Numbered from the stretch's first letter, positions 7,876 to 64,000 are shown. The stretch: 64,000 nt of DNA from a virus (IMGVR_UViG_3300048583_000100:1-64000), one strand, 5' to 3'. The notes: a model not told the origin generated them from the sequence alone. Numbers and translations are program-made.

Positions 7876-9231
7876 TCAGGTACGACCGATCAGCATGTAC
7901 CGATCATACTGATTGAACTTCCTGGTGCCTTCGTACAACACCTCATTGAGGGACAGAATATTCCTAAGCTCCGAAGAATTGTCTACGTTCGAGATGTGGC
8001 CTTCGCCTTCGAGGTAGTTGTTGTTCTGTACTACGAGGAATCTACCAGAAGGAATCATCTTACACCATGCGCCAATATCTTCGATGTGCTCTGACGAAGT
8101 GTTGATGATGATGTCGTAATCAGAATAATCTACAGCAAACATGTCTGCGGTAACCGTCTTGAAAGCGAAATCGTAGTTAAGCTTCTCTGCAATTCGATTT
8201 GCGCGTTCGTCAAGGTCCAAGCTGGTTATTTCGAATGGAAGTTCCCAGCTGTTCATGAGGAGAGAAAGAGTTCCAATCCAGCCACCAACGATCAGCACTC
8301 TGAATTTGTGATCGGGAAGTGTCTGTACTTTGCCCTCATTGATCAATCGCTTGAGCTCTTCGATCACCCACAGCTTACTGAGTAGCTGACCATCAGAGAT
8401 GGCGTCGCGAAGTTCGGTAACTGGCAGTTGCGCAAGTACGAACGGGTCGTAAAGCGAAGATGCGATACGAGAGGTAAAGAAGAGCTCATGCTTCATTGGG
8501 TTATTCTCTGATGGAGTTGGATCAGTGTTGAAGTCAATTTCGGGATACGTCTCAGCAAATAGTCTGTTCAGAAGATCGTGATCGTTGATGAACATCAGTC
8601 CATCTTTACTGGCATTCTGCTGCTTAGCTTCATAGAGTCCTCTGCGGGCTCCAGCTTCTACATGAGCTCTGAATTCGCAGCGACGAAGAGGTTCAGCCCA
8701 TGCAGATAGACGGGAGCGAGCTTCGTCGACTTCTTTTTTGGGGATGTCAGTGTTTTGAGTTGTCACGTAAAGCTTTGCTGCTTCTCTGAAGGCACCACGA
8801 TATGCTCTAAACGGATCAGAGTTGAATTTCGTGACACACGCAATTTCAGGCATCAACTTAATGCCCTTGGCGAGAGTAGTTGAGAAGTCGAGCTGCGTAG
8901 TTACGTTCGCGAAGAACTTCTTACTAAAGAGCTTGACGCCGCCGTAACCGTAATCCATACCAATGGCAGGATTGAATGCGTTCCAGATGTGGACGTACTC
9001 TGCTTCGTGTTCAGTCGGCTTGTATTCGAATTTGAATGTGTCGAGTATTTCCGCATCAGCATCTACTACGTAGAAAAATGTAGTGGACGCTTTCTTTGCG
9101 GCATCGATGTGAGCATTCGCAATGCCCTTTACGCCATGAACGCGCTTTGCATGTGGGAATCTTTTGCGCAGGTTCTGCCAATTGCGATCAGCGTTTGGCT
9201 CGTCGTATGAGATGAAGATAATGTCGAGCAT
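7876..9231 (-). CDS. glycosyltransferase-like domain fused to SAM methyltransferase
   Basis: The 451-residue protein has two parts. Residues 1-270 match the protein at 19026-20003 in pattern: FISYDEPN, KRVHGVKGI, a DxD-like YVVDADA, GYGGVKLFSK and DPFRAYRGAFREA. This is a GT-A-like domain as seen in phage and capsule glycosyltransferases. From about residue 290 there is a class I methyltransferase (VLIVGGWIGTLS as motif I, then TSLDLDE, then NTSSEHIED). A late promoter (GATAAATA) lies 25 bases upstream, so it is made late. It probably modifies a sugar on the virion or the host surface. Activity and substrate are inference. Confidence 0.75.
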   Translation of the reverse strand: MLDIIFISYDEPNADRNWQNLRKRFPHAKRVHGVKGIANAHIDAAKKASTTFFYVVDADAEILDTFKFEYKPTEHEAEYVHIWNAFNPAIGMDYGYGGVKLFSKKFFANVTTQLDFSTTLAKGIKLMPEIACVTKFNSDPFRAYRGAFREAAKLYVTTQNTDIPKKEVDEARSRLSAWAEPLRRCEFRAHVEAGARRGLYEAKQQNASKDGLMFINDHDLLNRLFAETYPEIDFNTDPTPSENNPMKHELFFTSRIASSLYDPFVLAQLPVTELRDAISDGQLLSKLWVIEELKRLINEGKVQTLPDHKFRVLIVGGWIGTLSLLMNSWELPFEITSLDLDERANRIAEKLNYDFAFKTVTADMFAVDYSDYDIIINTSSEHIEDIGAWCKMIPSGRFLVVQNNNYLEGEGHISNVDNSSELRNILSLNEVLYEGTRKFNQYDRYMLIGRT

Positions 9232-9256: not shown

Positions 9257-9264
9257 TATTTATC
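9257..9264 (-). promoter_or_regulatory. late promoter GATAAATA
   Basis: This T4-type late -10 element lies 25 bases upstream of the glycosyltransferase-methyltransferase gene and directly after a terminator hairpin, so it isolates that gene from the RNA ligase operon. Confidence 0.75.
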
Positions 9265-15511: not shown

Positions 15512-16954
15512 TCAGGTCTTGCTTCGCCAAACTGGATCTGCTAGCGGCTTCCAGGCCTGTTCACTGATTGCCTTACCCTGATTCCAGATAGCTTCTAGAG
15601 ATGGGAAGGTTTTGATGAAGTCTGTTCCGCGTCTCGTGTCCATCTCGGAGAAAACAGAATAAGTGTTGGCGAGCTGAGCAGTATCCTGTGGTGTCGAATT
15701 GATCCAATCTACCAGACGATTGATCTGATCGACCTCCTCAATGTACAAATTACCGTTGACGTCGTATCCGCCCTGAGTCATCTCCTTGACTACAGCGATC
15801 ATCTTGTCGGCAAATACCTTTCGCTGTACGTCGTCAAGCAGCGTAATCTGCTGATGAGAAGGCCAGCGCAAGTAATTGACACTCAACGTAATGCGTGAGC
15901 GAGCACGATTCACATCGTACTTCTTTCTCAATGCGCAGACGAATCGAATGAAGTCGTCGAATGATTCGGAAGATAGTAGATCAACCGTCGTCATCATGCC
16001 CAATGTGACATCACTTGGTGTGTTGTCTAGAAGGTACGAAATGTTCTGGACATACAAATCCCAATCCATACCGAAGCGACTGTACTCTGCCTGCTCGCGA
16101 ACTGATTCTGCTGACGTGAAGATGATGACGCCTTTACACTTTTCGCGGATGTCATTGATGCTCTCAACAAGCTTCTCAACGAGCTTATGTGGAATACCCA
16201 TGTTCGTGTTGACTTCAAGCTTGAGTTCCTTACGAGGATTCTCTTTGATGTAGTCAAACACTCTCCACGTATTCTTGGACAGCAGTGGTTCGCCACCGGT
16301 AATGCGGAAGGTGTGAAGCGCCTGATAGAGTTCAGGCCACCATTCCCAGAACTTGTCGATGTACGGGTTGACTTCTGTGTGGTGATACGCAAGCTTACCC
16401 TGACCGCGAAGCCAGTCTAGATCATGATGGTTGTCACCATTGGCCAGCTTGTAACCGCCATGCTTGACAATCTCTTCCATCCAACGGGATGAAACGTCTG
16501 GGGAGCAGTAGGTGCACTTGAAGTTGCAAGTGTTTTCGAAAGCTACTTCGAGGTAGACGGGGTTGATGTTCTGTCCCAGTCCTGAATCAACGGCATTGTC
16601 AAAGTTTTCCCAGAGGCCCATGCCTACGTTAGCAGACTTGTAGTGGCGATCAGAGAAGTGTTCCTCACCAAGGTTCTCAATGTTCCAGCAGTAGTCGCAC
16701 TCTTTCGTCTGTACACCATCTAGCATGTCTTGACGAGCTGCGATCTTGGTCGGCGTATTGTGAAGGGCGGTCGAAGACTTCTCTAGGTCCTCAAGCTTGA
16801 TCTTGTGGGGCACTGGGTGGTGGCACGAGTGCGTGAAGCCGTTATAGAGCGTAGTAGTTGACGTCAGCCACTTCGCAGTACAAAACGTAGGTGAGACGGC
16901 ATTTAGCTTCTCAACCTTGTCTTTCAGTCTGGAGATTCTATCTTCGTTTGACAT
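15512..16954 (-). CDS. radical SAM protein (twitch-domain type)
   Basis: The 480-residue protein contains the radical SAM cluster motif C143-x3-C147-x2-C150 (NTCNFKCTYC) followed by the SAM-binding GGEP-like FRITGGEPLL. Extra cysteines upstream (C25, C44, C86, C89) look like an auxiliary cluster site, as in twitch/SPASM-type enzymes. These enzymes use S-adenosylmethionine and an iron-sulfur cluster to modify peptides, sugars or other small molecules. It is last in a late operon of glycosyltransferase-like genes, so it may modify a sugar or a peptide carrier. The substrate is unknown. Confidence 0.88.
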   Translation of the reverse strand: MSNEDRISRLKDKVEKLNAVSPTFCTAKWLTSTTTLYNGFTHSCHHPVPHKIKLEDLEKSSTALHNTPTKIAARQDMLDGVQTKECDYCWNIENLGEEHFSDRHYKSANVGMGLWENFDNAVDSGLGQNINPVYLEVAFENTCNFKCTYCSPDVSSRWMEEIVKHGGYKLANGDNHHDLDWLRGQGKLAYHHTEVNPYIDKFWEWWPELYQALHTFRITGGEPLLSKNTWRVFDYIKENPRKELKLEVNTNMGIPHKLVEKLVESINDIREKCKGVIIFTSAESVREQAEYSRFGMDWDLYVQNISYLLDNTPSDVTLGMMTTVDLLSSESFDDFIRFVCALRKKYDVNRARSRITLSVNYLRWPSHQQITLLDDVQRKVFADKMIAVVKEMTQGGYDVNGNLYIEEVDQINRLVDWINSTPQDTAQLANTYSVFSEMDTRRGTDFIKTFPSLEAIWNQGKAISEQAWKPLADPVWRSKT

Positions 16955-18465
16955 TAGAGTCCTCTAGCAAATATGTGATATCTGCTCTTGTTTGTTTTAC
17001 GCCACCACGAAGCAGAGTCTGCGAGGATAGCTGTGTAGAAATCTCGATTGTACTCGTCATCCAAGAAGAACTCGAAGGTATCTCTCTGAACAACTTCGGT
17101 GAAGATGATGTCGGTTGCTTCTTCGCTACCAAACGTAATGTCTTGAGTGACCATTGGTAGCATCGAATGTAAATCTTTGTCCTTGGTCGTTAGCGAAAGC
17201 GTTCGCAGTCTGGCAGGGAGCTTTCTGAAATACGACCACATGTCCTTCCCAAACATGAACCACATATCGTTCGAGCGATCATCTGCTGGGTTCTTGTTGA
17301 GCACAATACCCTCAAGAGGAATTTCGTAGAGCCAATGCTTAGCCCAGATGAAAACGTCTGGCCTGATAATCACGATGCGCTCGTAGTCTGAAGATGCAAA
17401 TAGGAAAGCCGCTCGCTCCCAGTGGCTCAACATGTATTCAACAGTATCCTGAAGCTTCGACTTCTTCTTCTTCATCTCACTCTTGAACTGTTCGAAGTTG
17501 TCAAGATGTACGTAGTCAGCTCTGACTATTCTAGCAAAGCGGTGGGCTTCAGGCGTGCCCCATGCAACGACAGCAACATCAGCATCGCCGAAAAGCGGTA
17601 GCGTAAGTAGGCCCGCGTGATAGTTTCTGATTTCACCCGAATAGATGACGAGAGTCTTGTTGCCTTTCTTTCTATTGAGACGCCCGGAACGATAGGTGAG
17701 CAGTGCTTCTTCGGTAATGTCATAGCTCCAAGATTGCACAGCGACCTTGTAGTTACCATGCTTCTTAGAAGTATTTACGATGTGCGCATCACGCCAATCA
17801 TCGTGCCGAGTATGGACATCCTGAATGCTCTTGATCTCCAGGTTGTTCGAAGGTCTAAAGAACGTGAGCGGTACATGCTCGAACATGAACTCAATGGGTA
17901 CTTGTGCGTAAGTGTTTACCTTGTTCGCCCACCATTTGTGCACGTCGCCCTGACGATTGGTCTGCCAATCATCGACTGAGATGTTTGAGAAGATTCTATC
18001 GAGGACTTCGAATGATGCAGCGAACATCGTATCAGCCTTGACATCATCGCGAGTGTTCCACATGATCTCAAGAACGTCTTCATCGTGCAGCGTCTGCTGT
18101 TTTGCCGTAGACTGCGGATCGATATAAAGGTCGGGTCGAACGACGATGATCTTCTTGTATCGCTTCCCACTAGCACGAATCATTTCCCAGCCAGCCAACC
18201 AGCGATGCACCATGTGATCGCTATATCTTTTGGTCGTAAAGCATTCTGCTGGCTCGATAAGAATGGTAGCGTTTGGTAGCAGCTTTCTAATGCGCTCTTC
18301 GGTTACGTCTTCCTGAATATCGATGCCGAGCAGATCGTTCTTGATTGAGACCTTATCCCACGTACTAACATAGACATCAACCGAATCGTTGATGAACTTC
18401 ATTGTCGGCAAGCACTGCTCTAGAAAGCGTAGCTCGCCTGAGATAAGAACGGCTTGACACTTCAT
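16954..18465 (-). CDS. tandem-domain glycosyltransferase-like protein
   Basis: The 503-residue protein seems to contain two copies of one domain. The first starts MKCQAVLISGELRFLEQCLP and has KIIVVRPDLYID near residue 130. The second starts KTLVIYSGEIRNYHAGLLTL near residue 268 and has RIVIIRPDVFIWA near 365. The SGE-R start and the RPD motif occur in phage and capsule-type glycosyltransferase-like families of GT-A fold. It overlaps the radical SAM gene by one base and lies in the same late operon. The sugar substrate is unknown. Confidence 0.7.
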   Translation of the reverse strand: MKCQAVLISGELRFLEQCLPTMKFINDSVDVYVSTWDKVSIKNDLLGIDIQEDVTEERIRKLLPNATILIEPAECFTTKRYSDHMVHRWLAGWEMIRASGKRYKKIIVVRPDLYIDPQSTAKQQTLHDEDVLEIMWNTRDDVKADTMFAASFEVLDRIFSNISVDDWQTNRQGDVHKWWANKVNTYAQVPIEFMFEHVPLTFFRPSNNLEIKSIQDVHTRHDDWRDAHIVNTSKKHGNYKVAVQSWSYDITEEALLTYRSGRLNRKKGNKTLVIYSGEIRNYHAGLLTLPLFGDADVAVVAWGTPEAHRFARIVRADYVHLDNFEQFKSEMKKKKSKLQDTVEYMLSHWERAAFLFASSDYERIVIIRPDVFIWAKHWLYEIPLEGIVLNKNPADDRSNDMWFMFGKDMWSYFRKLPARLRTLSLTTKDKDLHSMLPMVTQDITFGSEEATDIIFTEVVQRDTFEFFLDDEYNRDFYTAILADSASWWRKTNKSRYHIFARGL

Positions 18466-18468
18466 TCG

Positions 18469-19029
18469 TTAAAGCCAGACCCACGCTGCGCATTCTTCAA
18501 TGGTGACCATTCGAGGAGATACGCGCCCGCAGAATTCGTCTACCGCTTGGATGCAGCCTGGGAACATATCGAAGTAATCGTCGAACACGATGATGCCATC
18601 CTTAGCCATGAATCGATGCCACGTGTTAATGTCATCTCGAACAGCTTCATAGGTGTGAACGCAGTCGATAAAGAGCAGATCAATCTTCTTGGAGAAATTG
18701 AGGTACTCTACGTTGAGTGGCATGTAAGCACGAACAGTTTCAAGGTTCACCACTTCGCTCGTATTGCGCAGGAATTCCTGGTACGAGTATGGGCGGGATC
18801 GATCACCTAGGCAGGTGTCGGGAATCTCCTGCGGCTGATCCGGGAACATGTCAAAGCACGTCAGCTTGACATTATTCGGCTTGTTCATTCCCATCGCATA
18901 TGCGCTGCGACCACAGAAGCTGCCAACTTCAACGATCCATCCGTTGAACGGTACCTGGGCGGCAAGAATAGCCAGTCGTTCAAGCTTCTTCTCAGAGCTC
19001 CAACCGGGGATGTTTGTATTCAGCTTCAT
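18469..19029 (-). CDS. SAM-dependent methyltransferase (class I, Methyltransf_24-like)
   Basis: The 186-residue protein has motif I VEVGSFCGRSAYAMG, then KLTCFDMFPD (motif II acidic residue), then LLFIDCVHTYEAVRDDI and DGIIVFDDYFD. This is the pattern of class I methyltransferases that often act on sugars or small molecules in glycan clusters. It lies between two glycosyltransferase-like genes and overlaps the upstream one by ATGA, so a role in methylating a sugar is likely but inferred. Confidence 0.85.
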   Translation of the reverse strand: MKLNTNIPGWSSEKKLERLAILAAQVPFNGWIVEVGSFCGRSAYAMGMNKPNNVKLTCFDMFPDQPQEIPDTCLGDRSRPYSYQEFLRNTSEVVNLETVRAYMPLNVEYLNFSKKIDLLFIDCVHTYEAVRDDINTWHRFMAKDGIIVFDDYFDMFPGCIQAVDEFCGRVSPRMVTIEECAAWVWL

Positions 19030-20003
19030 TGATCAACCTCAATTTCGGTGGCAAGCGGATTCATCGTGCGCTTTGGTGGTTCGTAGACAGACTTGAAGAA
19101 GCGAGACTGCTCTTCATTGAAGTTGGCTATCGTCATACCCAGCTCTCTGTTGAGTGGAATGATTAGTTCGGCGCTCTCTTTACGAAGCTCGTTGTTGTTC
19201 CATCTTAGTTTGGTGCGGGGGCACCAATGCGTACACTCTATTTCTGGGAAGTCTGCAAAGCGCCAAATGATGTGATCATCCCAATACTTCTTAAACCACT
19301 CGTAGTCAGAAATTTGAGAGATGTCAAACGTCTTGTCGATGTTGGCCATATAGATACCGAGACGAGTACCGTAGATAGCCCAATCACCATTCTCTACGTC
19401 AGCCCCGATTGTTGCCCAGATAAGCAGACGACGGTAATTCTTTTCGTGCAGGTACTTGTTGATGACACCCTCACCAGCTTTGACACCACGATCCAGAGTC
19501 ATCTTGACACCTTCACGGAAGCCAGCTCTAAATGCTTGGAATGGAGAACCATTTGGGCACGTATCAGTGTAGACACCATTTAGCTGAACGTACTTGTCGT
19601 CCCAGCAGAAGTCGACCTTCTCTGCGTCATTTGTGGCATTCTCATGGGTGCGCATATTGAGAACGAATTCTTTCGTCCACAGCTTTGCCCCGCCGTTGCC
19701 ATAGCAAAGTCCATTGATGACATTGCGACCAGCCCAGCTGAGAGTCTTGTCGTGAAGCTTCTCTGGGATTTCGATCTGGAGATCGAAGAATTCAGGATAG
19801 ACGATGTTGTCACCGTCAATCGTGATAAAGCGTTCCGTTTCCGATTGTTCTGCACATGCCTTGTGGGCACTGTCGAAACCCTTGACGCCATCTACTCGCT
19901 TAGCCCATGGAGCTAGCTCTTGTATTTTGGCCCAATACTCTTCTTTCTGAGGTTCATCGTATGAGATGTAGAAGAGGTCAAACTCGGTGATTGCTTGCTT
20001 CAT
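19026..20003 (-). CDS. glycosyltransferase-like protein
   Basis: The 325-residue protein is a paralogue of the N-terminal domain of the fusion at 7876-9231. Shared markers are FYISYDEPQ, KRVDGVKGFDSAH, a DxD-like TIDGDN, GNGGAKLWTKEF and SPFQAFRAGFREG. The DGDN motif is placed as the metal-binding site of a GT-A fold. Unlike its paralogue it lacks the methyltransferase half; the separate methyltransferase gene lies immediately downstream, which mirrors the fusion. Confidence 0.7.
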   Translation of the reverse strand: MKQAITEFDLFYISYDEPQKEEYWAKIQELAPWAKRVDGVKGFDSAHKACAEQSETERFITIDGDNIVYPEFFDLQIEIPEKLHDKTLSWAGRNVINGLCYGNGGAKLWTKEFVLNMRTHENATNDAEKVDFCWDDKYVQLNGVYTDTCPNGSPFQAFRAGFREGVKMTLDRGVKAGEGVINKYLHEKNYRRLLIWATIGADVENGDWAIYGTRLGIYMANIDKTFDISQISDYEWFKKYWDDHIIWRFADFPEIECTHWCPRTKLRWNNNELRKESAELIIPLNRELGMTIANFNEEQSRFFKSVYEPPKRTMNPLATEIEVDQ

Positions 20004-20649
20004 GACGTATGATGACCATTTTGATGTTTGATTTGGCAGTGTAGACAGAGGTGTCTTCTGCTTGAGGAAGATGTAGAACTAGCGGGTTAGGCCACTCACT
20101 TAGGCCATTTGCGGCAGTGATCTCGTTCATGATATTTACATCCAGCGAGAAAGCGCATTTCAGGAAGGTTGGGTTTCCCTCGGCGGTGAAGTACAGTTTA
20201 GCAGGTTCCTTCCACCTGCTGATCCGCTCTCCATTGAAATGAATCAACACTGCGTCAGGTACCTTACCAATCTCAACCCTGATGTCTACATTTTCAGAGT
20301 CTTCCTCGGGAACTTCCTGCATGACAAGACCTTCGACTCTTTCGTACTTTAGCTTCGATAGATCGCGGCTATCCATGAGGATGTATTCGTCACCCCGCTT
20401 GATAGCAAGCCATCGGCCTGGACGCTTCTTGCCGCTCGTGAAGTCTTCAGCTAGGTCTTTGTCGATTGGGATGCTGACCATATTCTCGCCCGCTTGTGGG
20501 CGACGAGAGATGCTCATGATGCGGCCGTGTCGCACGCCTACATGCGCGTAAAATTGGACTGGCTGGCGTTCTACTGGAAGAGTCACATTGATCTCATTCA
20601 CAGTCTGTGTGATGTCAATCTTGCCTAGAATACTGATCGGCGCACTCAT
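19978..20649 (-). CDS. unknown protein of the late glycan operon
   Basis: The 223-residue protein starts at MSAPISILGKIDITQ, where the ATG overlaps the preceding stop (ATGA). It is rich in beta-type segments (EINVTLPVERQPVQFYAHVG, VDIRVEIGKVPDAVLIHFNG) and looks like a two-domain beta protein, possibly a virion or carbohydrate-binding component. No family is recognised. It overlaps the next gene by 26 bases. Confidence 0.7.
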   Translation of the reverse strand: MSAPISILGKIDITQTVNEINVTLPVERQPVQFYAHVGVRHGRIMSISRRPQAGENMVSIPIDKDLAEDFTSGKKRPGRWLAIKRGDEYILMDSRDLSKLKYERVEGLVMQEVPEEDSENVDIRVEIGKVPDAVLIHFNGERISRWKEPAKLYFTAEGNPTFLKCAFSLDVNIMNEITAANGLSEWPNPLVLHLPQAEDTSVYTAKSNIKMVIIRHEASNHRV

Positions 20650-21506
20650 ATGCCCAACTTCCTTTCCATAGTCGCGATCATCTTGTCTGTCACGAATTCT
20701 TTTACGTGATAGTGGAACGGTAGCGTCTGCTTGTAATTGCCTATCATGATCGAGCAATCGCGGCCGAAGTAACTGGGAATCATTTTCGTCCAATCTTCAA
20801 CCATAAACCGATTGTCTGTCCAGCCCTGTAGCTGACTCTTCATGTGCACAAAGGTTGGTAGGTTTAGATGAGGCGTACGATTGTGCTCTTCGTAATTCAG
20901 AATCTTGGCAGCGATTGCGAACACTACGTCAGTGGACACGATCTTAGGACGGTTGTCTGGCCCCAGGAACTCATAGAAGTATCGTTCCCAATTGTTGAAG
21001 ATGTCTTCTGCTAGTTGGAACAGTTCGTAGTTGACATCGTTCTTCTTGAAGTAGAACATCGCCGTGTAAACGTTTGGAAGTCCAGACTCTGTATACGTCT
21101 TGCGGTAGAAGTCGCTGGTGATCTTCTCACCTCTGTACGAGATGGGAGCAGTACAGAAGATACCATCACTGTAAGACATCGCGTCCCACCAAGCGCTAAC
21201 GTCAGAAGGAAAGAGCATGTCGGCATCAAGCTTAATGGTCTCTTCGTAAGGCGTCATGTAGATAGCCTTCCACTCATTCTCTAGCTTCCATGATGATTTC
21301 TCAGCATGATCTTTCCAGGGAATTTCGACGATCTCGTCAAACACTTTCTTGTACTTGGGGTTGACAGTCTTCAGCTCTTCACTAGTAACGCCGATAGAAA
21401 GCTTCGAAAACTCTTTTGGCTGAGAGATTTTCAGTGAGAGCGCAAGAGCGTACGCAAGCCGCTGGTAGGCCTGTCCTTGAGCAATAGTAAAGTACCCTCT
21501 GCTCAT
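20646..21506 (-). CDS. glycosyltransferase-like protein
   Basis: The 286-residue protein starts MSRGYFTIAQGQAYQRLAYA and has a DxD motif in ETIKLDADMLFPSD near residue 93. The DxD, the preceding helix and later segments such as FYFKKNDVNYELFQLAEDI match its neighbour at 21503-22387, which also starts MSRG. The pair are probably duplicated GT-A-type enzymes. The start is at an ATGA overlap; a longer frame reaching 21605 lies inside the upstream gene. Confidence 0.7.
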   Translation of the reverse strand: MSRGYFTIAQGQAYQRLAYALALSLKISQPKEFSKLSIGVTSEELKTVNPKYKKVFDEIVEIPWKDHAEKSSWKLENEWKAIYMTPYEETIKLDADMLFPSDVSAWWDAMSYSDGIFCTAPISYRGEKITSDFYRKTYTESGLPNVYTAMFYFKKNDVNYELFQLAEDIFNNWERYFYEFLGPDNRPKIVSTDVVFAIAAKILNYEEHNRTPHLNLPTFVHMKSQLQGWTDNRFMVEDWTKMIPSYFGRDCSIMIGNYKQTLPFHYHVKEFVTDKMIATMERKLGI

Positions 21507-22387
21507 GACAGAGTCTCCATGATAGCGTCCATGTTGTTCAACAGCGATAGCTTGTTCATGCAGTGCACGTTGACTCCGCTCAACCTTGTTACGTAGAACT
21601 TCCAAGTCTCGGCTGGATCGTTAGCGAATAGTGACAGATCGGTTGGAGAGTGGATTGCAAAGAACTGGTCAGTGTCGAGTGATGTCAGAATAGACGGGAT
21701 GGGGAGAGGTGACACTGAATCATTGCCATCTACGAAGCCGTTAAGGATGTGAATGGCTATTGAGAAGGCGTAATCGTTTCTGAAGAGCGTACCTGGAATT
21801 TCGTAGAGCATCACGTAGTACTGCCAGTTCTCTTTGATGAAGTCAACCAAATCGAATAGTAGCTTTGCCTTGTCACCCTTTCTAAAGTAGATGACGGTTG
21901 CCCAGTACATTCTGATGCCAAAGAGATTAAGCCTGAACTCGTGCCCCTGCATGGGAGTATGAAGTAGACTTGTGGCATCGCGATTGATCATCACCTCTTC
22001 ATCGTTACCCCAGACGGCATTGAGTGCGCCATTACATACGAGGTAATCGACGTCAATCAAGAGCGTCTCGTCAAATGGTGAGAGTGAATAGACGCTCGAC
22101 CGCGTTTCGTTCTTAAAGGTCGATTCGACTCCATGGTATTTGGTGTCGCGATAGACGCGAGAGTTTTCAAACCGCTGTTCGGTCTTTGGTAGCAGAATGA
22201 CTCGATCGATATTGTCAAGTTTCCACTTGTGCTTACCGAGCTGCGAGTTTCGGCTGTCTTCGTCAGTGATCAGCGCGATTGGAATTCCAGGCATATTCTT
22301 GCGGATGAACGCAGCTGCCATCACGGCAAGCTGAACATAGTCAACCTTGGAGTTGTTTACTCCGAAAAGAACGATACCTCTGGACAT
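21503..22387 (-). CDS. glycosyltransferase-like protein
   Basis: The 294-residue protein begins MSRGIVLFGVNNSKVDYVQL and has ETLLIDVDYLVCNG near residue 110, a DxD in the same context as in the downstream paralogue. YFRKGDKAKLLFDLVDFIKE matches the other protein's FYFKKNDVNYELFQLAEDI. A role in sugar transfer is inferred from the motif and the company it keeps. Confidence 0.7.
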   Translation of the reverse strand: MSRGIVLFGVNNSKVDYVQLAVMAAAFIRKNMPGIPIALITDEDSRNSQLGKHKWKLDNIDRVILLPKTEQRFENSRVYRDTKYHGVESTFKNETRSSVYSLSPFDETLLIDVDYLVCNGALNAVWGNDEEVMINRDATSLLHTPMQGHEFRLNLFGIRMYWATVIYFRKGDKAKLLFDLVDFIKENWQYYVMLYEIPGTLFRNDYAFSIAIHILNGFVDGNDSVSPLPIPSILTSLDTDQFFAIHSPTDLSLFANDPAETWKFYVTRLSGVNVHCMNKLSLLNNMDAIMETLS

Positions 22388-22770
22388 CAGCGTGCCCCTA
22401 CTACAGCCTTAGTGGTTCTCGCTTTGCCCAGAGTCTTTATCTGGATTGTGTAATCGTTGAGCGCCTCAGAATAGATATCGAGAATCTTCTGGTAGAACTC
22501 TGAAATGTCTTCGATCTGAATTGGATTCGCGTTCACGTCCAGAAGAGTCACAGACGTTTTGCCGCCTGTAACAAGAGCGGCAGCGAAAGAAATTAGAGCG
22601 GGATTGATCTGGAAAGTGCCGCCGGACGTGGCATACACTAGCGCATTCTCTAGCTTGAGCCGCGCATTCTGCTTTTGAATATTCAGGGTCGTGCGATAGT
22701 TGGCGTGTACCAACGCCTCTTCTAGACGCGTATCTATGGCAGCCTGAAGGTCATGATTCGGTTTCTGCAT
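22387..22770 (-). CDS. unknown protein, first gene of the late glycan operon
   Basis: The 127-residue protein is mostly helical, with an N-terminal coiled-coil-like stretch (LQAAIDTRLEEALVHANYRT) and IEDISEFYQKILDIYSEALN. It begins 45 bases downstream of a late promoter, so it is expressed late and may be a virion or assembly protein. It overlaps the next gene by one base. Confidence 0.75.
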   Translation of the reverse strand: MQKPNHDLQAAIDTRLEEALVHANYRTTLNIQKQNARLKLENALVYATSGGTFQINPALISFAAALVTGGKTSVTLLDVNANPIQIEDISEFYQKILDIYSEALNDYTIQIKTLGKARTTKAVVGAR

Positions 22771-22787
22771 TATCTGATTCCATATGA

Positions 22788-22816
22788 AAGAGGAGCCGTT
22801 GTGAACGGCTCCTCTT
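22788..22816 (-). terminator. 13-bp perfect hairpin, terminator of the virion gene
   Basis: AAGAGGAGCCGTT pairs with AACGGCTCCTCTT around GTG. It lies after the virion gene at 22849-24360. The overlapping late promoter would start transcripts at or inside this hairpin, so the operon's mRNA may begin with a stem-loop. Confidence 0.75.
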
Positions 22817-22823
22817 ATTTATC
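22816..22823 (-). promoter_or_regulatory. late promoter GATAAATA for the glycan operon
   Basis: This T4-type late -10 element lies 45 bases upstream of the 127-aa gene, abutting the hairpin at 22788-22816. It would drive the run of genes down to the radical SAM gene. Confidence 0.75.
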
Positions 22824-22848: not shown

Positions 22849-24360
22849 TCAGGCTCCTGACTCTGTGAACGTACCGCTGTGGGCTACGACAGGTGCGGCG
22901 ATGCCTGGGCTGTTGCAGTTTTCAGCAGATGCGTAGTACACACCAATTTCAGAAGCAAGAGCGCCGTTAAGCTGAGTATCTGTCGTGTCATTTTGACCAG
23001 GTAGACCGGTGGTTACGTTCAACAGACGGTATTCAATTGCAAACGTTACACGATAGTTCAGACCAGAGACCGCCTTGCGAGCACGGATGATCATACCACC
23101 GTTAGTTGGCGTCGAGTAGACGAAAATGTTGCCCGGTGTATCAAGTACGTCGCGCTGGAAAATGGTCTGATACGTGCTGTTGAGATCGTAGTATCCCAAG
23201 TACTCGGTGCCACCATCAACTACGGGTAGGTACGTTGGGGTGAAGCTTGGCGAGCGGTATGCTGGCGTAGTCTTGACACCGTAGTAGTCAAAGCAGAAGC
23301 CAGAGAAGGCGTTGAGGAAGATTTCCCAATCCTGCTCCACATTAGAAGGTGAACCTTCCGAAGGTGTGAAGCTTGGTTCGAATTGAATCAGTCCACCAGC
23401 ATTGAAGAATGCTTCGGCGGCGGCCTCGTCTTCAAAGTCAACCGTCACTGTGTGGATGTATTCGTCAACAGCAGTTGGGATGTTTAGGTCGAAGCCAAGA
23501 GATGTGTCACGAACTGGGCCACCCTCATTGCTGTATTCCGACTGACCAGCGCCAAGAGAGAAGCGATGCAGCTCAAGTGCGTCAAGAGCAGCTTCAGTTG
23601 CCAAGTATGCATCAGTTAGAGCAGTAGTGCTAAGACCGCCGTAACCAGCAGCAATGTTTGCGATTGTGCCAGTACCAGAAACGAAGTTGTTGTACGCATT
23701 GGCAAGGGAATTGCCTGGGCTATTAGGCAGCCCATCGTTGACAAAGCCCACAAGCGAAGTTTCCGATTCGTCGAGACCTGTCTGGCGAAGAGCCTTACGT
23801 AGACGAGAGATAGCAATCGCCCAAGCATTGTTGTTGAACGTGCGTGGGAATACTTCGCCGCCTGGCAGATCTGCTTCACGAGCAATCGACGTCGAATCTA
23901 GTGCACCACTGGCATTATATGTTGGTACCCAGTCGGTTTGACCCCAACCCCAAACGGTGGTTGGTACTACGTCACCTGGTTCTGGACCATCAGGCGTACC
24001 AATAATGCGGTTGATTCGTGCAGCGAATCCGATTGGACCAACTGTTGGGCTGTAATCGCCCAGACCGAATGCAGCGTCAGCACAAACGTTCTTCCACTCA
24101 GTGCCATCCCAAATCTTCAGGCACTCGTCGGCAGTACTGTACCAAAGCTGACCAGTAGTCGGCGCTGGTGGCGAATCGAAGTACGCGAAGTTCTCAAGAA
24201 GCTTAAGGAAGTTTTCCTGCTGGAACAGACCATAGTTGTTAAGGCCCTTACCAGTCAGAACCAGTGAAGTAGAAGCAGCGTCAAATGTGCGCTCTGCTAC
24301 GGTGATAGCTGGCTTACCGCCTGGGCTGCCAGTGCTGGACCAATTTACGATGTAGCTCAT
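22849..24360 (-). CDS. virion protein, probable tail fibre or baseplate-associated
   Basis: The 503-residue protein starts MSYIVNWSSTG after a GGAG site. Residues 20-85 hold LTGKGLNNYG, then QENFLKLLENFA, then P-x-P-x-x-G-x-LWY...KIWDGTEWKNV. This N-terminal module is common in phage tail-associated structural proteins. The remainder is low in charge and rich in Ser, Thr, Asn and Gly, as in fibres. A late promoter lies 78 bases upstream. The exact virion location is not determined. Confidence 0.8.
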   Translation of the reverse strand: MSYIVNWSSTGSPGGKPAITVAERTFDAASTSLVLTGKGLNNYGLFQQENFLKLLENFAYFDSPPAPTTGQLWYSTADECLKIWDGTEWKNVCADAAFGLGDYSPTVGPIGFAARINRIIGTPDGPEPGDVVPTTVWGWGQTDWVPTYNASGALDSTSIAREADLPGGEVFPRTFNNNAWAIAISRLRKALRQTGLDESETSLVGFVNDGLPNSPGNSLANAYNNFVSGTGTIANIAAGYGGLSTTALTDAYLATEAALDALELHRFSLGAGQSEYSNEGGPVRDTSLGFDLNIPTAVDEYIHTVTVDFEDEAAAEAFFNAGGLIQFEPSFTPSEGSPSNVEQDWEIFLNAFSGFCFDYYGVKTTPAYRSPSFTPTYLPVVDGGTEYLGYYDLNSTYQTIFQRDVLDTPGNIFVYSTPTNGGMIIRARKAVSGLNYRVTFAIEYRLLNVTTGLPGQNDTTDTQLNGALASEIGVYYASAENCNSPGIAAPVVAHSGTFTESGA

Positions 24361-24438
24361 GTCGTCTCCAATGCGCCGGTTCACATGTAAGTTTTCTCAG
24401 CATGCCGGTATTGATTAGCTGAGGGTGATTATCCTGCG

Positions 24439-24446
24439 TATTTATT
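24439..24446 (-). promoter_or_regulatory. late promoter AATAAATA
   Basis: This late -10-like element lies 78 bases upstream of the virion gene start, just after the terminator that ends phoH. Confidence 0.65.
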
Positions 24447-47121: not shown

Positions 47122-47616
47122 TCAACCTGCGAGTCGCTCCATGTCTCCGAGTTCAAGAAGCTGCTTGATGTAGAGACAGGCGTCCATCACTGCGCCCTCA
47201 CCACCCTTGTTAGGTGTCACGAAATTTGCAGCCTTGATAGCTTCAATTCGCGCATTCGCGGGTGCGATACCAATTGCGCAAGTCTTGATGCATGGCGCAT
47301 CGTAGTAGCCGTCGCCCATGAAAATGGTTTCGCGTGGATTCATCTGATGAATGAATTCAAGTCTGTCTTCTTCGGGTATAAACGTCAGCTCATATCCCAT
47401 GTCTGCACAAATTCTGCGATGTGTAATCTCGTAGCCTCTCTTATCGGCAGAGATAAACTGAATTCGAAGACGATTGCGAAGCATCTTCAATCCATCTGCA
47501 TCATGCGGGCCAAACACCTTCGCTAGCTTGCCAGCAGCAGTGTAAATGAACTGCCCGTTAGTCATGACACCATCGACATCAAGGATGAAGTTTTTCAGAT
47601 CTGCGGTTCTAAACAT
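47122..47616 (-). CDS. HAD phosphatase, KdsC-like
   Basis: The 164-residue protein starts MFRTADLKNFILDVDGVMTN with HAD motif DVDGVMT, followed by KVFGPHDADGLKMLRN and FISADKRGYEITHRRICADM, and later FMGDGYYDAPCIK. This is the KdsC type of 3-deoxy-octulosonate-phosphate phosphatase. It probably removes a phosphate from a sugar in a pathway with the nucleotidyltransferase-kinase gene that overlaps it by 8 bases. Confidence 0.85.
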   Translation of the reverse strand: MFRTADLKNFILDVDGVMTNGQFIYTAAGKLAKVFGPHDADGLKMLRNRLRIQFISADKRGYEITHRRICADMGYELTFIPEEDRLEFIHQMNPRETIFMGDGYYDAPCIKTCAIGIAPANARIEAIKAANFVTPNKGGEGAVMDACLYIKQLLELGDMERLAG

Positions 47617-49126
47617 TGGTGTTGACCTTGTGGTTGAGTCGTTCGAGAGCCAGACAGAATAGTAGCTTATCGAGTGGAGCATTGTGGAGAGGAGCCATGT
47701 TCAGGAAAATCAGCGTGACCATATCGTCAATGATCGGGCTTGGGAGCATGTGCTTGAATTTTTCGCGGAAGGCAATGAACTCTGGACGGCTTTCGAATCC
47801 AAACGAGCACGAGTCTCCGTCTTCAGACACCCAGAATTTGTGTTCGCGAATGTAATCGTAGTTGACTATCATGCCACCTACCAGCTTCGCAGCATCATAA
47901 TAGAGATCGCCGACTTTGATCTGCCCACCGAAATCCTGTCTCCAGTCGATGAGCGTAAACTTCTCACCATCGTAGATGACGTTGTCGAACTGAAGATCAC
48001 CATGGAAGAACACCGAACGAGTCTTCAGATCGGTGTTGAGCATTGCATTCCAATCGATGTGATGCTGAATGCCATTGTCGATGTCGACTTTTAGCACTCG
48101 CCCGTTGATGATCTTTGGATTGAATGTCGGGTACTTGTCTCGGAAAACCTGTAGACGACGCATCGTCTTGTCGTAGTAGAATTTGCGGCACAGCTCAGGA
48201 GTAAGCGTCTTGCTCTCATCCATCTGCCATACTTCGAATGCCATCCACTCCAAGAATTTCGTAAAGGTTTCGGCAGTTAGCGACTTGTAGAGCACATCAC
48301 CTGGCACAAAGTGATACGAGTACCATGGCCCACGGTGTTCAATGATCTTTGGAAAGAGATGCTCTCTGCCTTCGATTCGAGCAAGACGATTCATCGTGTT
48401 AGCTGGATTGCGGAACCACTTGATGACTCGATTGTTGACGATGTAGAGGAACTCGTCTGACTTGCTGTTGTCAAATGGTGAAGTCTCCTTAGAAAACTTC
48501 TCATAGCGCTCGTAGGTGCCAAGATCAACCCAAGGAAGCTCGATTGAATGTACCTCATTAGCAGTCCAACCGCTGGCGAGCTCGATACCGTTCAGACCGT
48601 TCCAAAAATGCTTTGTGTCCTTGATGTAGAAAACACCAGAGACAGCAATTCCAGAATCGAAATGCTGCTTGTCAACCACCGTGTCGATGCGCGTACCGTC
48701 TAGAGCTACGTTGCAGTACGCAGGAGAATCCATTGGATCAATGCGAGCAGTCGCTACATAGTTCTTATCTTCGGGAATGTCATTGAGCCCCTCGTAGTAT
48801 CCATCACAAGCGATCAGATAGAAGGGCCCGTCGATATGCGCACCTGCGGCGAGCAATGATTGGGCTGGACCAGCACCCGGCCCATCAAAGTTTTCGACGT
48901 ACGAGTAAAGGAAATTCCGTTCTGGGTGGGCGAGCGATAGATAGTCGCGAACTTGGTCGTGCTTGTACCCCACAGCAACCACGAACTTCGTGTCTTGGGG
49001 AAATTGCTCGATGATGTGCGAAATGATTGCCTTGCCTCGAATGGGAAGCAGCGTCTTGTTGATGACGGTACTGTACTTTCCCATTCGCGATCCCGTTCCT
49101 GCTGTGAGGAGGACCACTGTTTTCAT
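47609..49126 (-). CDS. bifunctional sugar nucleotidyltransferase and APH/choline-kinase-like protein
   Basis: The 505-residue protein is a fusion. Residues 1-230 form an NTP-transferase (TAGTGSRMGKYSTVINKTLL, then LIACDGYYEG). From about 250 a kinase-like domain follows with the APH/choline-kinase loop VFFHGDLQFDNVIYDG and TLIDWRQDFGGQ. Such pairs occur in LicC/LicA-type phosphocholine or amino-sugar activation. The late promoter is 34 bases upstream, so it would act in late modification. The start was set at MKTVVLLTAG, after AGGTC. The substrate is unknown. Confidence 0.85.
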   Translation of the reverse strand: MKTVVLLTAGTGSRMGKYSTVINKTLLPIRGKAIISHIIEQFPQDTKFVVAVGYKHDQVRDYLSLAHPERNFLYSYVENFDGPGAGPAQSLLAAGAHIDGPFYLIACDGYYEGLNDIPEDKNYVATARIDPMDSPAYCNVALDGTRIDTVVDKQHFDSGIAVSGVFYIKDTKHFWNGLNGIELASGWTANEVHSIELPWVDLGTYERYEKFSKETSPFDNSKSDEFLYIVNNRVIKWFRNPANTMNRLARIEGREHLFPKIIEHRGPWYSYHFVPGDVLYKSLTAETFTKFLEWMAFEVWQMDESKTLTPELCRKFYYDKTMRRLQVFRDKYPTFNPKIINGRVLKVDIDNGIQHHIDWNAMLNTDLKTRSVFFHGDLQFDNVIYDGEKFTLIDWRQDFGGQIKVGDLYYDAAKLVGGMIVNYDYIREHKFWVSEDGDSCSFGFESRPEFIAFREKFKHMLPSPIIDDMVTLIFLNMAPLHNAPLDKLLFCLALERLNHKVNTNV

Positions 49127-62613: not shown

Positions 62614-63267
62614 TCACGAATGGTTCAGTTGTGAATCACGGGCTAGCTTGCCAACTGCTTCCATGATCAGGAAGACGTTGCGTTCGGGATGATCAGTACC
62701 GTCGAGCACCAGGTTCCAATTGTGAAGAGTCTTCCAATCGCGTTCGGTGGTCAGCATTGTGATCAGGCGTGTCACGTGGGTGTTCATGGCCTTGAGCAAG
62801 TCTTCTTCATTCAGAGGCCCAACTCGGTCGCAAATAACCATGACATCGTCCGTCAGCCTCTTACGCATCCTCTGAATGCGAAGCTCTTCAGGCGCATCGA
62901 CGTAACAGTTCAGATGCAGCGCACCAACTTCAAGAGCAGGTGCTACGTAGTGATTGATGCCGCTTGGTTCGACGATCAAGAATGCAACGCCTTTTGCGAG
63001 CTTACCATGGAACTCTTCTTTGGAAACGCCGTAGCGATAACCATTGTAGGTCATGAGCTCAGCGAATCCATCGCGAGCTTCGATTGCGCGAGACTCTTCT
63101 TCTGTGATGAAGAAGTAATCGACACCTTCTACTTCGCCTTTACGGGCTGGGCGAGTCGTAGTTGAGATGAGGCAAGGTAGACGCTCAATATCTCTGATGT
63201 GGTTCAGTAGATAGCTCTTTCCCGAATTGGACGGAGCTGTAAGTGTTACGAGGATTGGCTTAGCCAT
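62614..63267 (-). CDS. gmk: guanylate kinase
   Basis: The 217-residue protein has the P-loop APSNSGKS (residues 11-18) and the GMP-binding STTTRPARKGEVEGVDYFFI with GVDYFF. RIQRMRKRLTDDV is a lid region. It phosphorylates GMP/dGMP to the diphosphate, so it fits nucleotide supply with ThyA and MazG. It overlaps the nucleotidyltransferase gene by 22 bases. Confidence 0.92.
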   Translation of the reverse strand: MAKPILVTLTAPSNSGKSYLLNHIRDIERLPCLISTTTRPARKGEVEGVDYFFITEEESRAIEARDGFAELMTYNGYRYGVSKEEFHGKLAKGVAFLIVEPSGINHYVAPALEVGALHLNCYVDAPEELRIQRMRKRLTDDVMVICDRVGPLNEEDLLKAMNTHVTRLITMLTTERDWKTLHNWNLVLDGTDHPERNVFLIMEAVGKLARDSQLNHS

Positions 63268-64000
63268 TTCTGCTTTAGCTCCATTTGAATGTGAGCAACT
63301 TCCTCGGGAGTGTTGAAGGAGAGAGTTGGGTAATCGGTCTGATACACCGTCACAGGCTGATCAGTGTTGTAGAGATGATGGAACACGTAGAGCATTGAGA
63401 GCTCTCCGCCTTGCGTGATGTAGCGACCATTCTTCCAGAACGCATTGTGAAGATCATAAAGAGCTTCATGCAGTATGGACTTCTTGAATCGGAATACTGA
63501 CTGATCATGCAGGCCGCTAGAATGATTCTCACCATACTTTGAAAAATCGGCAGACATACATTCCATATCTTCGTCAACCAAAAGAGTCACATACGGGTTC
63601 GGTTTAAGAACTGCCGGCACTACACCCGAATGCCAATACATGGGATGCGACAGCAGTTCATCGATGATTTCGGGATTAGAGAAGAACACATCACCCCAAG
63701 CAATCACGATGTCATCGCTGACTTCGATTTTCTGAGCGTGGGCATCAACAAGTCCCCAAAGAACCGCATGACCATCGCCGAGCCCAGAAGAGATTGGCAC
63801 GTTATGAACGTTGTTCAGAAGCTCTGGATACTTCGCCTTGGTCTCTGCGAAGTATGCTGACCACTGGTCCTGAATGTCTTTGTTAGTGACGATGACAACC
63901 TTGTCGAATTTGGAACCAAGCTGTTGAAGAGTCGTAGTAAGGCAGGGCTCGTCCGTGATTGGTACGAGCGCCTTAGGAACGTTGACCTTCATTCGCGACC
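63246..64000 (-). CDS. partial nucleotidyltransferase, N-terminus outside the window
   Basis: The frame is open to the right end. The visible residues read SRMKVNVPKALVPITDEPCL, the second part of the NTP-transferase signature G-x-G-x-R...PKAL. The GTG-rich loop before it must lie beyond base 64000, so an internal ATG at 63992 is not the start. Later segments include DIVIAWGDVFFSNPEIIDEL and a DxD-type core. It probably activates a sugar or similar group, like the N-terminal half of 47609-49126. It overlaps the guanylate kinase gene. Confidence 0.8.
   Translation of the reverse strand, partial: SRMKVNVPKALVPITDEPCLTTTLQQLGSKFDKVVIVTNKDIQDQWSAYFAETKAKYPELLNNVHNVPISSGLGDGHAVLWGLVDAHAQKIEVSDDIVIAWGDVFFSNPEIIDELLSHPMYWHSGVVPAVLKPNPYVTLLVDEDMECMSADFSKYGENHSSGLHDQSVFRFKKSILHEALYDLHNAFWKNGRYITQGGELSMLYVFHHLYNTDQPVTVYQTDYPTLSFNTPEEVAHIQMELKQKWLSQSS

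Follow-up and report, generated by a model that had tools for sequence, protein, structure and literature searches.

Among the systems that resemble the locus described here, the host recognition cluster of pelagimyophages and cyanomyophages is reported as a tail-fibre region of T4-like phages, located between VrlC and gp14, that carries several GT8 glycosyltransferases as well as cassettes of radical S-adenosylmethionine (SAM) enzymes, with variable content (PMC7029224). Exchangeable arrays of radical SAM genes have been described in other T4-like phages, namely CP220/CPt10 (PMC2853527) and TARA_ERS488813_N000010 (PMC5332604), and mycobacteriophages encode glycosyltransferases that act on capsid or tail tube proteins, such that their virions are glycosylated (Freeman et al., 2023, as cited in PMC12619734 and PMC11256854). 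Here, we describe a gene cassette in the virus sequence IMGVR_UViG_3300048583_000100:1-64000; this 64-kb window, the whole stretch that was analysed, is the first part of a 97,427-bp virus contig that is itself a fragment. From its gene content, its promoter and its neighbours, we predict that the cassette is a late-expressed glycan assembly line that most likely decorates a virion or tail protein, a reading to which we assign a probability of about one half.

The cassette has the layout of an eight-gene late-type operon at 15512-22770. All eight genes lie on the minus strand, from 22770 down to 15512 (Table 1), and the gaps between them are only -26 to +3 nt, so a single transcription unit is likely. 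The radical SAM gene is probably the last of the operon, since a cREC-domain gene begins 38 nt past it and a sigma-70-like site (15508-15480) lies inside that gap. An original prediction made for 15512-22823 had proposed a single operon; every gene that it listed is present on this strand, but it omitted the first gene, P127, and the paralog GT451 falls outside its limits.

The order of the first five genes is conserved. A scan of viral contigs with a GT8 alignment profile gave at least 531 confirmed relatives, and the best 80 were kept as loci, picked by GT286 alone without regard to neighbouring genes; genes in these relatives are mechanical calls. Because only the best-scoring 80 of at least 531 were kept, the set is skewed to closer relatives and includes some near-duplicates. 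Among these loci the core order P127-GT8-GT8-partner-GT-A recurs, with GT294 in all 80, P127 in 78, GT325 in 75 and a radical SAM gene in 62-64. The slot past GT325, on the other hand, varies: it may hold radical SAM arrays of up to seven or eight genes, GT451-like genes, or genes for a carbamoyltransferase, an O-methyltransferase and a UDP-glucose/GDP-mannose dehydrogenase, and the window's own version holds a methyltransferase and a 503-aa repeat protein. Judged by gene content, such enzymes for carbamoyl, methyl and uronic acid tailoring suggest that the product is a glycan. Indeed, a role in glycan building is well supported by the predicted functions of the two GT8 genes, the GT-A gene, and the carbamoyltransferase and UDP-glucose dehydrogenase of relatives.

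Judging by these loci, the core cassette is conserved in many uncultured phages from water. A tblastn search of 50,697 cultured-phage records returned no match for GT286, GT325, the radical SAM enzyme, the 503-aa protein, a marine GT286 or a marine P127, in a search where a DNA polymerase control matched 2,600 records; a marine radical SAM protein gave a weak match, in Vibrio phages K566 and K567 only. Phage K566 (L148, 161.5-168.3 kb of the record) has at least four clustered radical SAM proteins, and is a possible laboratory system.

GT294 and GT286 are paralogs whose joint profile matches glycogenin (E=1.4e-7). They have a common acidic D/E-x-D metal motif, in which D96 is invariant, and on these sequence criteria we class both as GT8-type glycosyltransferases. 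GT325 is, by its predicted structure, a GT-A fold glycosyltransferase: the AlphaFold2 model has a predicted local distance difference test (pLDDT) score of 91, the DxD residues D63 and D65 are invariant, and the best PDB matches found by Foldseek include RmlT, chondroitin polymerase, WrtF and Mimivirus R699 (E 5e-4 to 2e-3), with modest scores (template modelling score ~0.3) to GT-A glycosyltransferases and related-fold nucleotidyltransferases. Thus, the glycogenin match and the GT-A fold bear out the paired and the further glycosyltransferase-like genes of the original prediction. GT451, which close relatives likewise encode downstream of the cassette, appears from its sequence to combine a GT325-like GT-A domain with a methyltransferase-like C-terminal part.

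Of the two other core proteins, P127 has three invariant residues (G50, F53 and P83) and a weak match only (E=0.0035), to a family of tail assembly chaperones. At the position between GT286 and GT325, 89 of ~95 proteins are homologous by iterated hidden Markov model search. This partner protein, first described as beta-rich, is instead predicted to have two mixed alpha/beta domains (AlphaFold2, pLDDT 88.6), and Foldseek returned no named fold for it, only uncharacterised phage proteins. In profile searches of the PDB, no significant match was obtained for GT325, P127, the partner or the 503-aa protein. No membrane segments were found in the operon proteins, none of which has a 19-residue window above 1.5 on the Kyte-Doolittle scale.

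Two enzymes that could tailor sugars had been named from the outset, and both assignments hold. The methyltransferase matches Pfam Methyltransf_24 (4e-19), and a 36% identical homolog in locus L076 adjoins a UDP-glucose dehydrogenase. The last operon gene encodes an N-twitch radical SAM enzyme as judged by its match to N_Twi_rSAM (NF033640; 302 bits against a cut-off of 170, over model positions 1-397 of 398); the CxxxCxxC cysteines C143/C147/C150 and the additional C25, C44, C86 and C89 are kept in 61 of 61 sequences. The literature that we found on the twitch radical SAM family in phages reports no function. The 503-aa protein contains two repeats. Single-protein scans with the methyltransferase and with the 503-aa protein found neither. 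An 801-aa, three-repeat version of the latter is encoded on the opposite strand at L002:6980-9385.

Late expression of the cassette is a supported prediction, drawn from its promoter, from motif enrichment across the genome and in relatives, and from a late sigma factor in the lineage; the late timing originally proposed is thus supported. The promoter core, GATAAATA, matches the T4 late consensus TATAAATA at 7 of 8 positions. One-mismatch matches to this consensus number 19 in the window against 14.5 expected, so that a single site is weak alone. For the core ATAAATA, by contrast, a third-order Markov model predicts 2.7 copies in the 97-kb contig, whereas 22 are observed; almost all of these are intergenic, mostly 23-57 nt ahead of a gene in the same direction. 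An equivalent site lies 47 nt ahead of the homologous start codon in locus L003. Across relatives, ATAAATA lies ahead of virion-type genes in 58 of 149 cases and ahead of P127 in 11 of 80, over a background of ~2.7% per 135 nt; it precedes none of 97 GT294 and none of 104 GT286 genes, as expected for genes internal to an operon. Its presence before 21 of 105 GT325 genes suggests a second late start in some cassettes. Of 12 records that bear the cassette, 9 have a T4-type gp55 late sigma gene, and all eight of the large records examined have a T4-type portal. The promoter motif of the original prediction is present, but it leads first into P127, not into the glycosyltransferase pair.

The promoter abuts a hairpin (fold -30 kcal/mol, z -5.7) that is kept across relatives despite differing sequence. 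With mononucleotide shuffles as the reference, the 90 nt ahead of P127 in relatives have a mean folding z of -2.05, with 41% below -2, compared with -0.2 to -0.4 for control starts. The T-run is short in the window and clearer in loci L002 and L007. We consider this hairpin, which overlaps the late promoter of the cassette, a probable terminator of the upstream virion-type gene and/or the 5' end of the late mRNA. Rfam searches found zero families across the operon region.

The gene on the far side of this boundary, VIR511, is the virion-type neighbour of the cassette. VIR511 matches phrog_15511 and virion structural families, and the gene before P127 is homologous to the VIR511 C-terminus in 78 of 84 sequences, the window included. 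The VIR511 C-terminal domain also matches gp360 of phage PA5oct, and its N-terminal part matches PA5oct gp359; electrospray ionization tandem mass spectrometry (ESI-MS/MS) notes mark both proteins as detected in PA5oct particles, and the name given to gp359 is virion structural protein. In loci L010 and L019, baseplate wedge and tail collar fibre genes lie upstream of the cassette.

Table 1. Features of the cassette and its surroundings; positions are counted from the first nucleotide of the window.
Feature	Position	Strand	Remark
VIR511, virion-type protein	22849-24384	-	Directly upstream of cassette; own late promoter 24439-24445
Late promoter core GATAAATA	22816-22823	-	46 nt ahead of first ATG (P127)
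Perfect 13-bp hairpin	22788-22816	-	Between virion-type gene and cassette; touches promoter
P127, first operon gene	22387-22770	-	127 aa; small conserved protein
GT294, GT8-like glycosyltransferase, first of pair	21503-22387	-	Profile match and alignment
GT286, GT8-like glycosyltransferase, second of pair	20646-21506	-	Profile match and alignment
Two-domain partner protein	19978-20649	-	Between GT286 and GT325; conserved
GT325, GT-A fold glycosyltransferase	19026-20003	-	325 aa; predicted fold, invariant DxD
Class I SAM methyltransferase	18469-19029	-	Phage-specific insert; Pfam Methyltransf_24
503-aa repeat protein	16954-18465	-	Phage-specific insert; internal repeats
Radical SAM enzyme, N-terminal twitch domain, last operon gene	15512-16954	-	NF033640
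GT451, paralog outside the originally predicted operon	7876-9231	-	Own late promoter 9257-9263

We propose that synthesis starts in the cytosol, where one of the GT8 enzymes would attach the first sugar to a virion protein; the likeliest acceptor is a protein associated with the tail or the fibres, for example the VIR511 product encoded next door. The second GT8 enzyme and the GT-A enzyme would then lengthen the chain, P127 and the partner protein would hold the acceptor or the enzymes, and sugars would be supplied or tailored by the radical SAM enzyme, by the methyltransferase and, among relatives, by the carbamoyltransferase and UDP-glucose dehydrogenase. A fixed core combined with swapped tailoring genes suggests that phages would carry different surface glycans but attach them by a common step. 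Decoration of the virion, as originally proposed, is thus plausible, given the preceding virion-type gene in nearly every relative, the lack of membrane segments and the glycosylated virions known from mycobacteriophages.

Several observations weigh against this proposal. Adjacency to a virion gene and late timing are no proof of a virion target. For related clusters, the authors of the pelagimyophage study favour modification of the host O-chain (PMC7029224). The match of the GT8 pair to glycogenin is confined to the N-terminal ~115 residues. Neither a gp55 late sigma gene nor a T4 portal was found in the 97-kb contig, which is a fragment. Lastly, the 503-aa protein has no match to any family in library scans; its repeats agree with the tandem-domain glycosyltransferase-like gene of the original prediction, but because of this lack of a family match its identity as a glycosyltransferase stays an earlier reader's guess.

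The most serious competitor, which we nonetheless regard as unlikely, is that the cassette alters a surface glycan of the host (a lipopolysaccharide (LPS) O-chain or capsule), and thereby blocks superinfection or the loss of progeny on cell debris. Carbamoyl, methyl and uronic acid tailoring is also found in surface polysaccharides. Modification of the host surface has been proposed for the GT8 genes of the pelagimyophage cluster, and GT8 enzymes often serve LPS synthesis, as stated in that report (PMC7029224). Set against this are the late promoter and the location behind a virion gene, and the operon has no membrane-anchored glycosyltransferase or flippase; moreover, much of the host surface glycan would presumably have been built before late expression begins.

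It is less probable still that the glycosyltransferases make a glycan while a peptide is the separate substrate of the radical SAM enzyme, which would crosslink or otherwise modify a virion protein. Radical SAM genes form arrays of up to 7-8 and also occur without the glycosyltransferase genes in the stretches examined, and in phages Atu_ph07 and Phosso, radical SAM genes that follow the same virion family adjoin a protein ending CHxSCHASCHxSRSRR, a tail like that of a ribosomally synthesized and post-translationally modified peptide (RiPP). We looked for such a Cys-rich peptide target, an idea taken from these two phages, in all cassette loci, and did not find one; furthermore, the radical SAM gene in this lineage often lies directly after GT325, beside sugar-tailoring enzymes. 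The peptide modification offered as an option in the original prediction has no support within the window.

We consider it very improbable that the cassette is a loose set of unrelated cargo genes with no common function: conservation is lacking for the methyltransferase and the repeat protein, which occupy a variable slot, but the five-gene core order is kept across many diverged viral sequences. Modification of the phage DNA is the most remote of the alternatives, since, even though T4-like phages glucosylate their DNA and this phage may do the same, a separate gene at contig 66616-67815 (L062:2616-3815) matches the T4 beta-glucosyltransferase (Pfam E=3e-19), none of the operon proteins matches the family of T4 DNA glucosyltransferases, and the cassette is predicted to be late and tied to a virion gene. 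The separate glucosyltransferase gene also supports the original view that early host-DNA modification is not the role of the operon.

Two other gene groups were noted. At window 47122-49126, a KdsC-like HAD phosphatase gene lies beside a nucleotidyltransferase-kinase fusion (NTP_transf_3 + APH), a possible sugar-activation pair. Genes for guanylate-kinase-like, MobA-like nucleotidyltransferase and CofD/YvcK-plus-HAD proteins are consecutive at window 62614-63992 and contig 64027-65934.

Returning to glycan decoration of the virion, we tentatively extend it, with less confidence than we place in the local reading, to a widespread group of uncultured T4-like phages that would use a fixed two-GT8 core, swappable tailoring genes and radical SAM chemistry on sugars to build a complex glycan on proteins of their own tails or particles, as a phage counterpart of flagellin glycosylation islands. 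If so, this would account for the radical SAM and glycosyltransferase genes of so many T4-like phages from water, which have so far been filed as loose auxiliary genes. The cassette would give a defined, testable core, and would open up a family of radical SAM enzymes; glycan-coated phage tails would bear on adsorption, host range and the recognition of particles.

Known systems share some of these features. The GT8 pair resembles the glycogenin/GT8 family in its N-terminal profile match and acidic motif, but overall similarity is low. Gtr-type O-antigen systems use a flippase and membrane-anchored glycosyltransferases, unlike the operon proteins. Mycobacteriophages belong to another phage group, and their acceptors, in contrast to the one proposed here, have been shown; the excerpts available report no radical SAM enzyme for them (PMC12619734, PMC11256854). 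In Agrobacterium phage Atu_ph07 and Sinorhizobium phage Phosso, the same virion family is followed by radical SAM genes, but these stretches have no homolog of GT8, P127, partner or GT325, and have a RiPP-like Cys-rich protein instead. Paralogs ending CHSSCHASCHNSRSRR (L151:13449-14339, Atu_ph07) and CHTSCHASCHSSRSRR (L150:12679-13599, Phosso) lie immediately behind the virion-family gene, beside a cupin-like protein and radical SAM genes, and represent a RiPP-like target for radical SAM chemistry in cultured phages. The original prediction held that radical SAM and glycosyltransferase genes together are unusual for a T4-type phage. This is wrong, because many radical SAM genes are on record in CP220/CPt10, TARA_ERS488813_N000010 and pelagimyophages (PMC2853527, PMC5332604, PMC7029224), in addition to those in most of our best 80 loci. 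For CP220/CPt10 and TARA_ERS488813_N000010, the published accounts report no GT8 core, and leave the function open or ascribe it to metabolism. As for the pelagimyophage cluster, a virion-type gene lies upstream in the window too; the fixed P127-GT8-GT8-partner-GT-A core, the terminator/late-promoter boundary and the tie to a single virion family are not described in the accessible text on that cluster or in the other literature we found, and these are the features that appear to be new.

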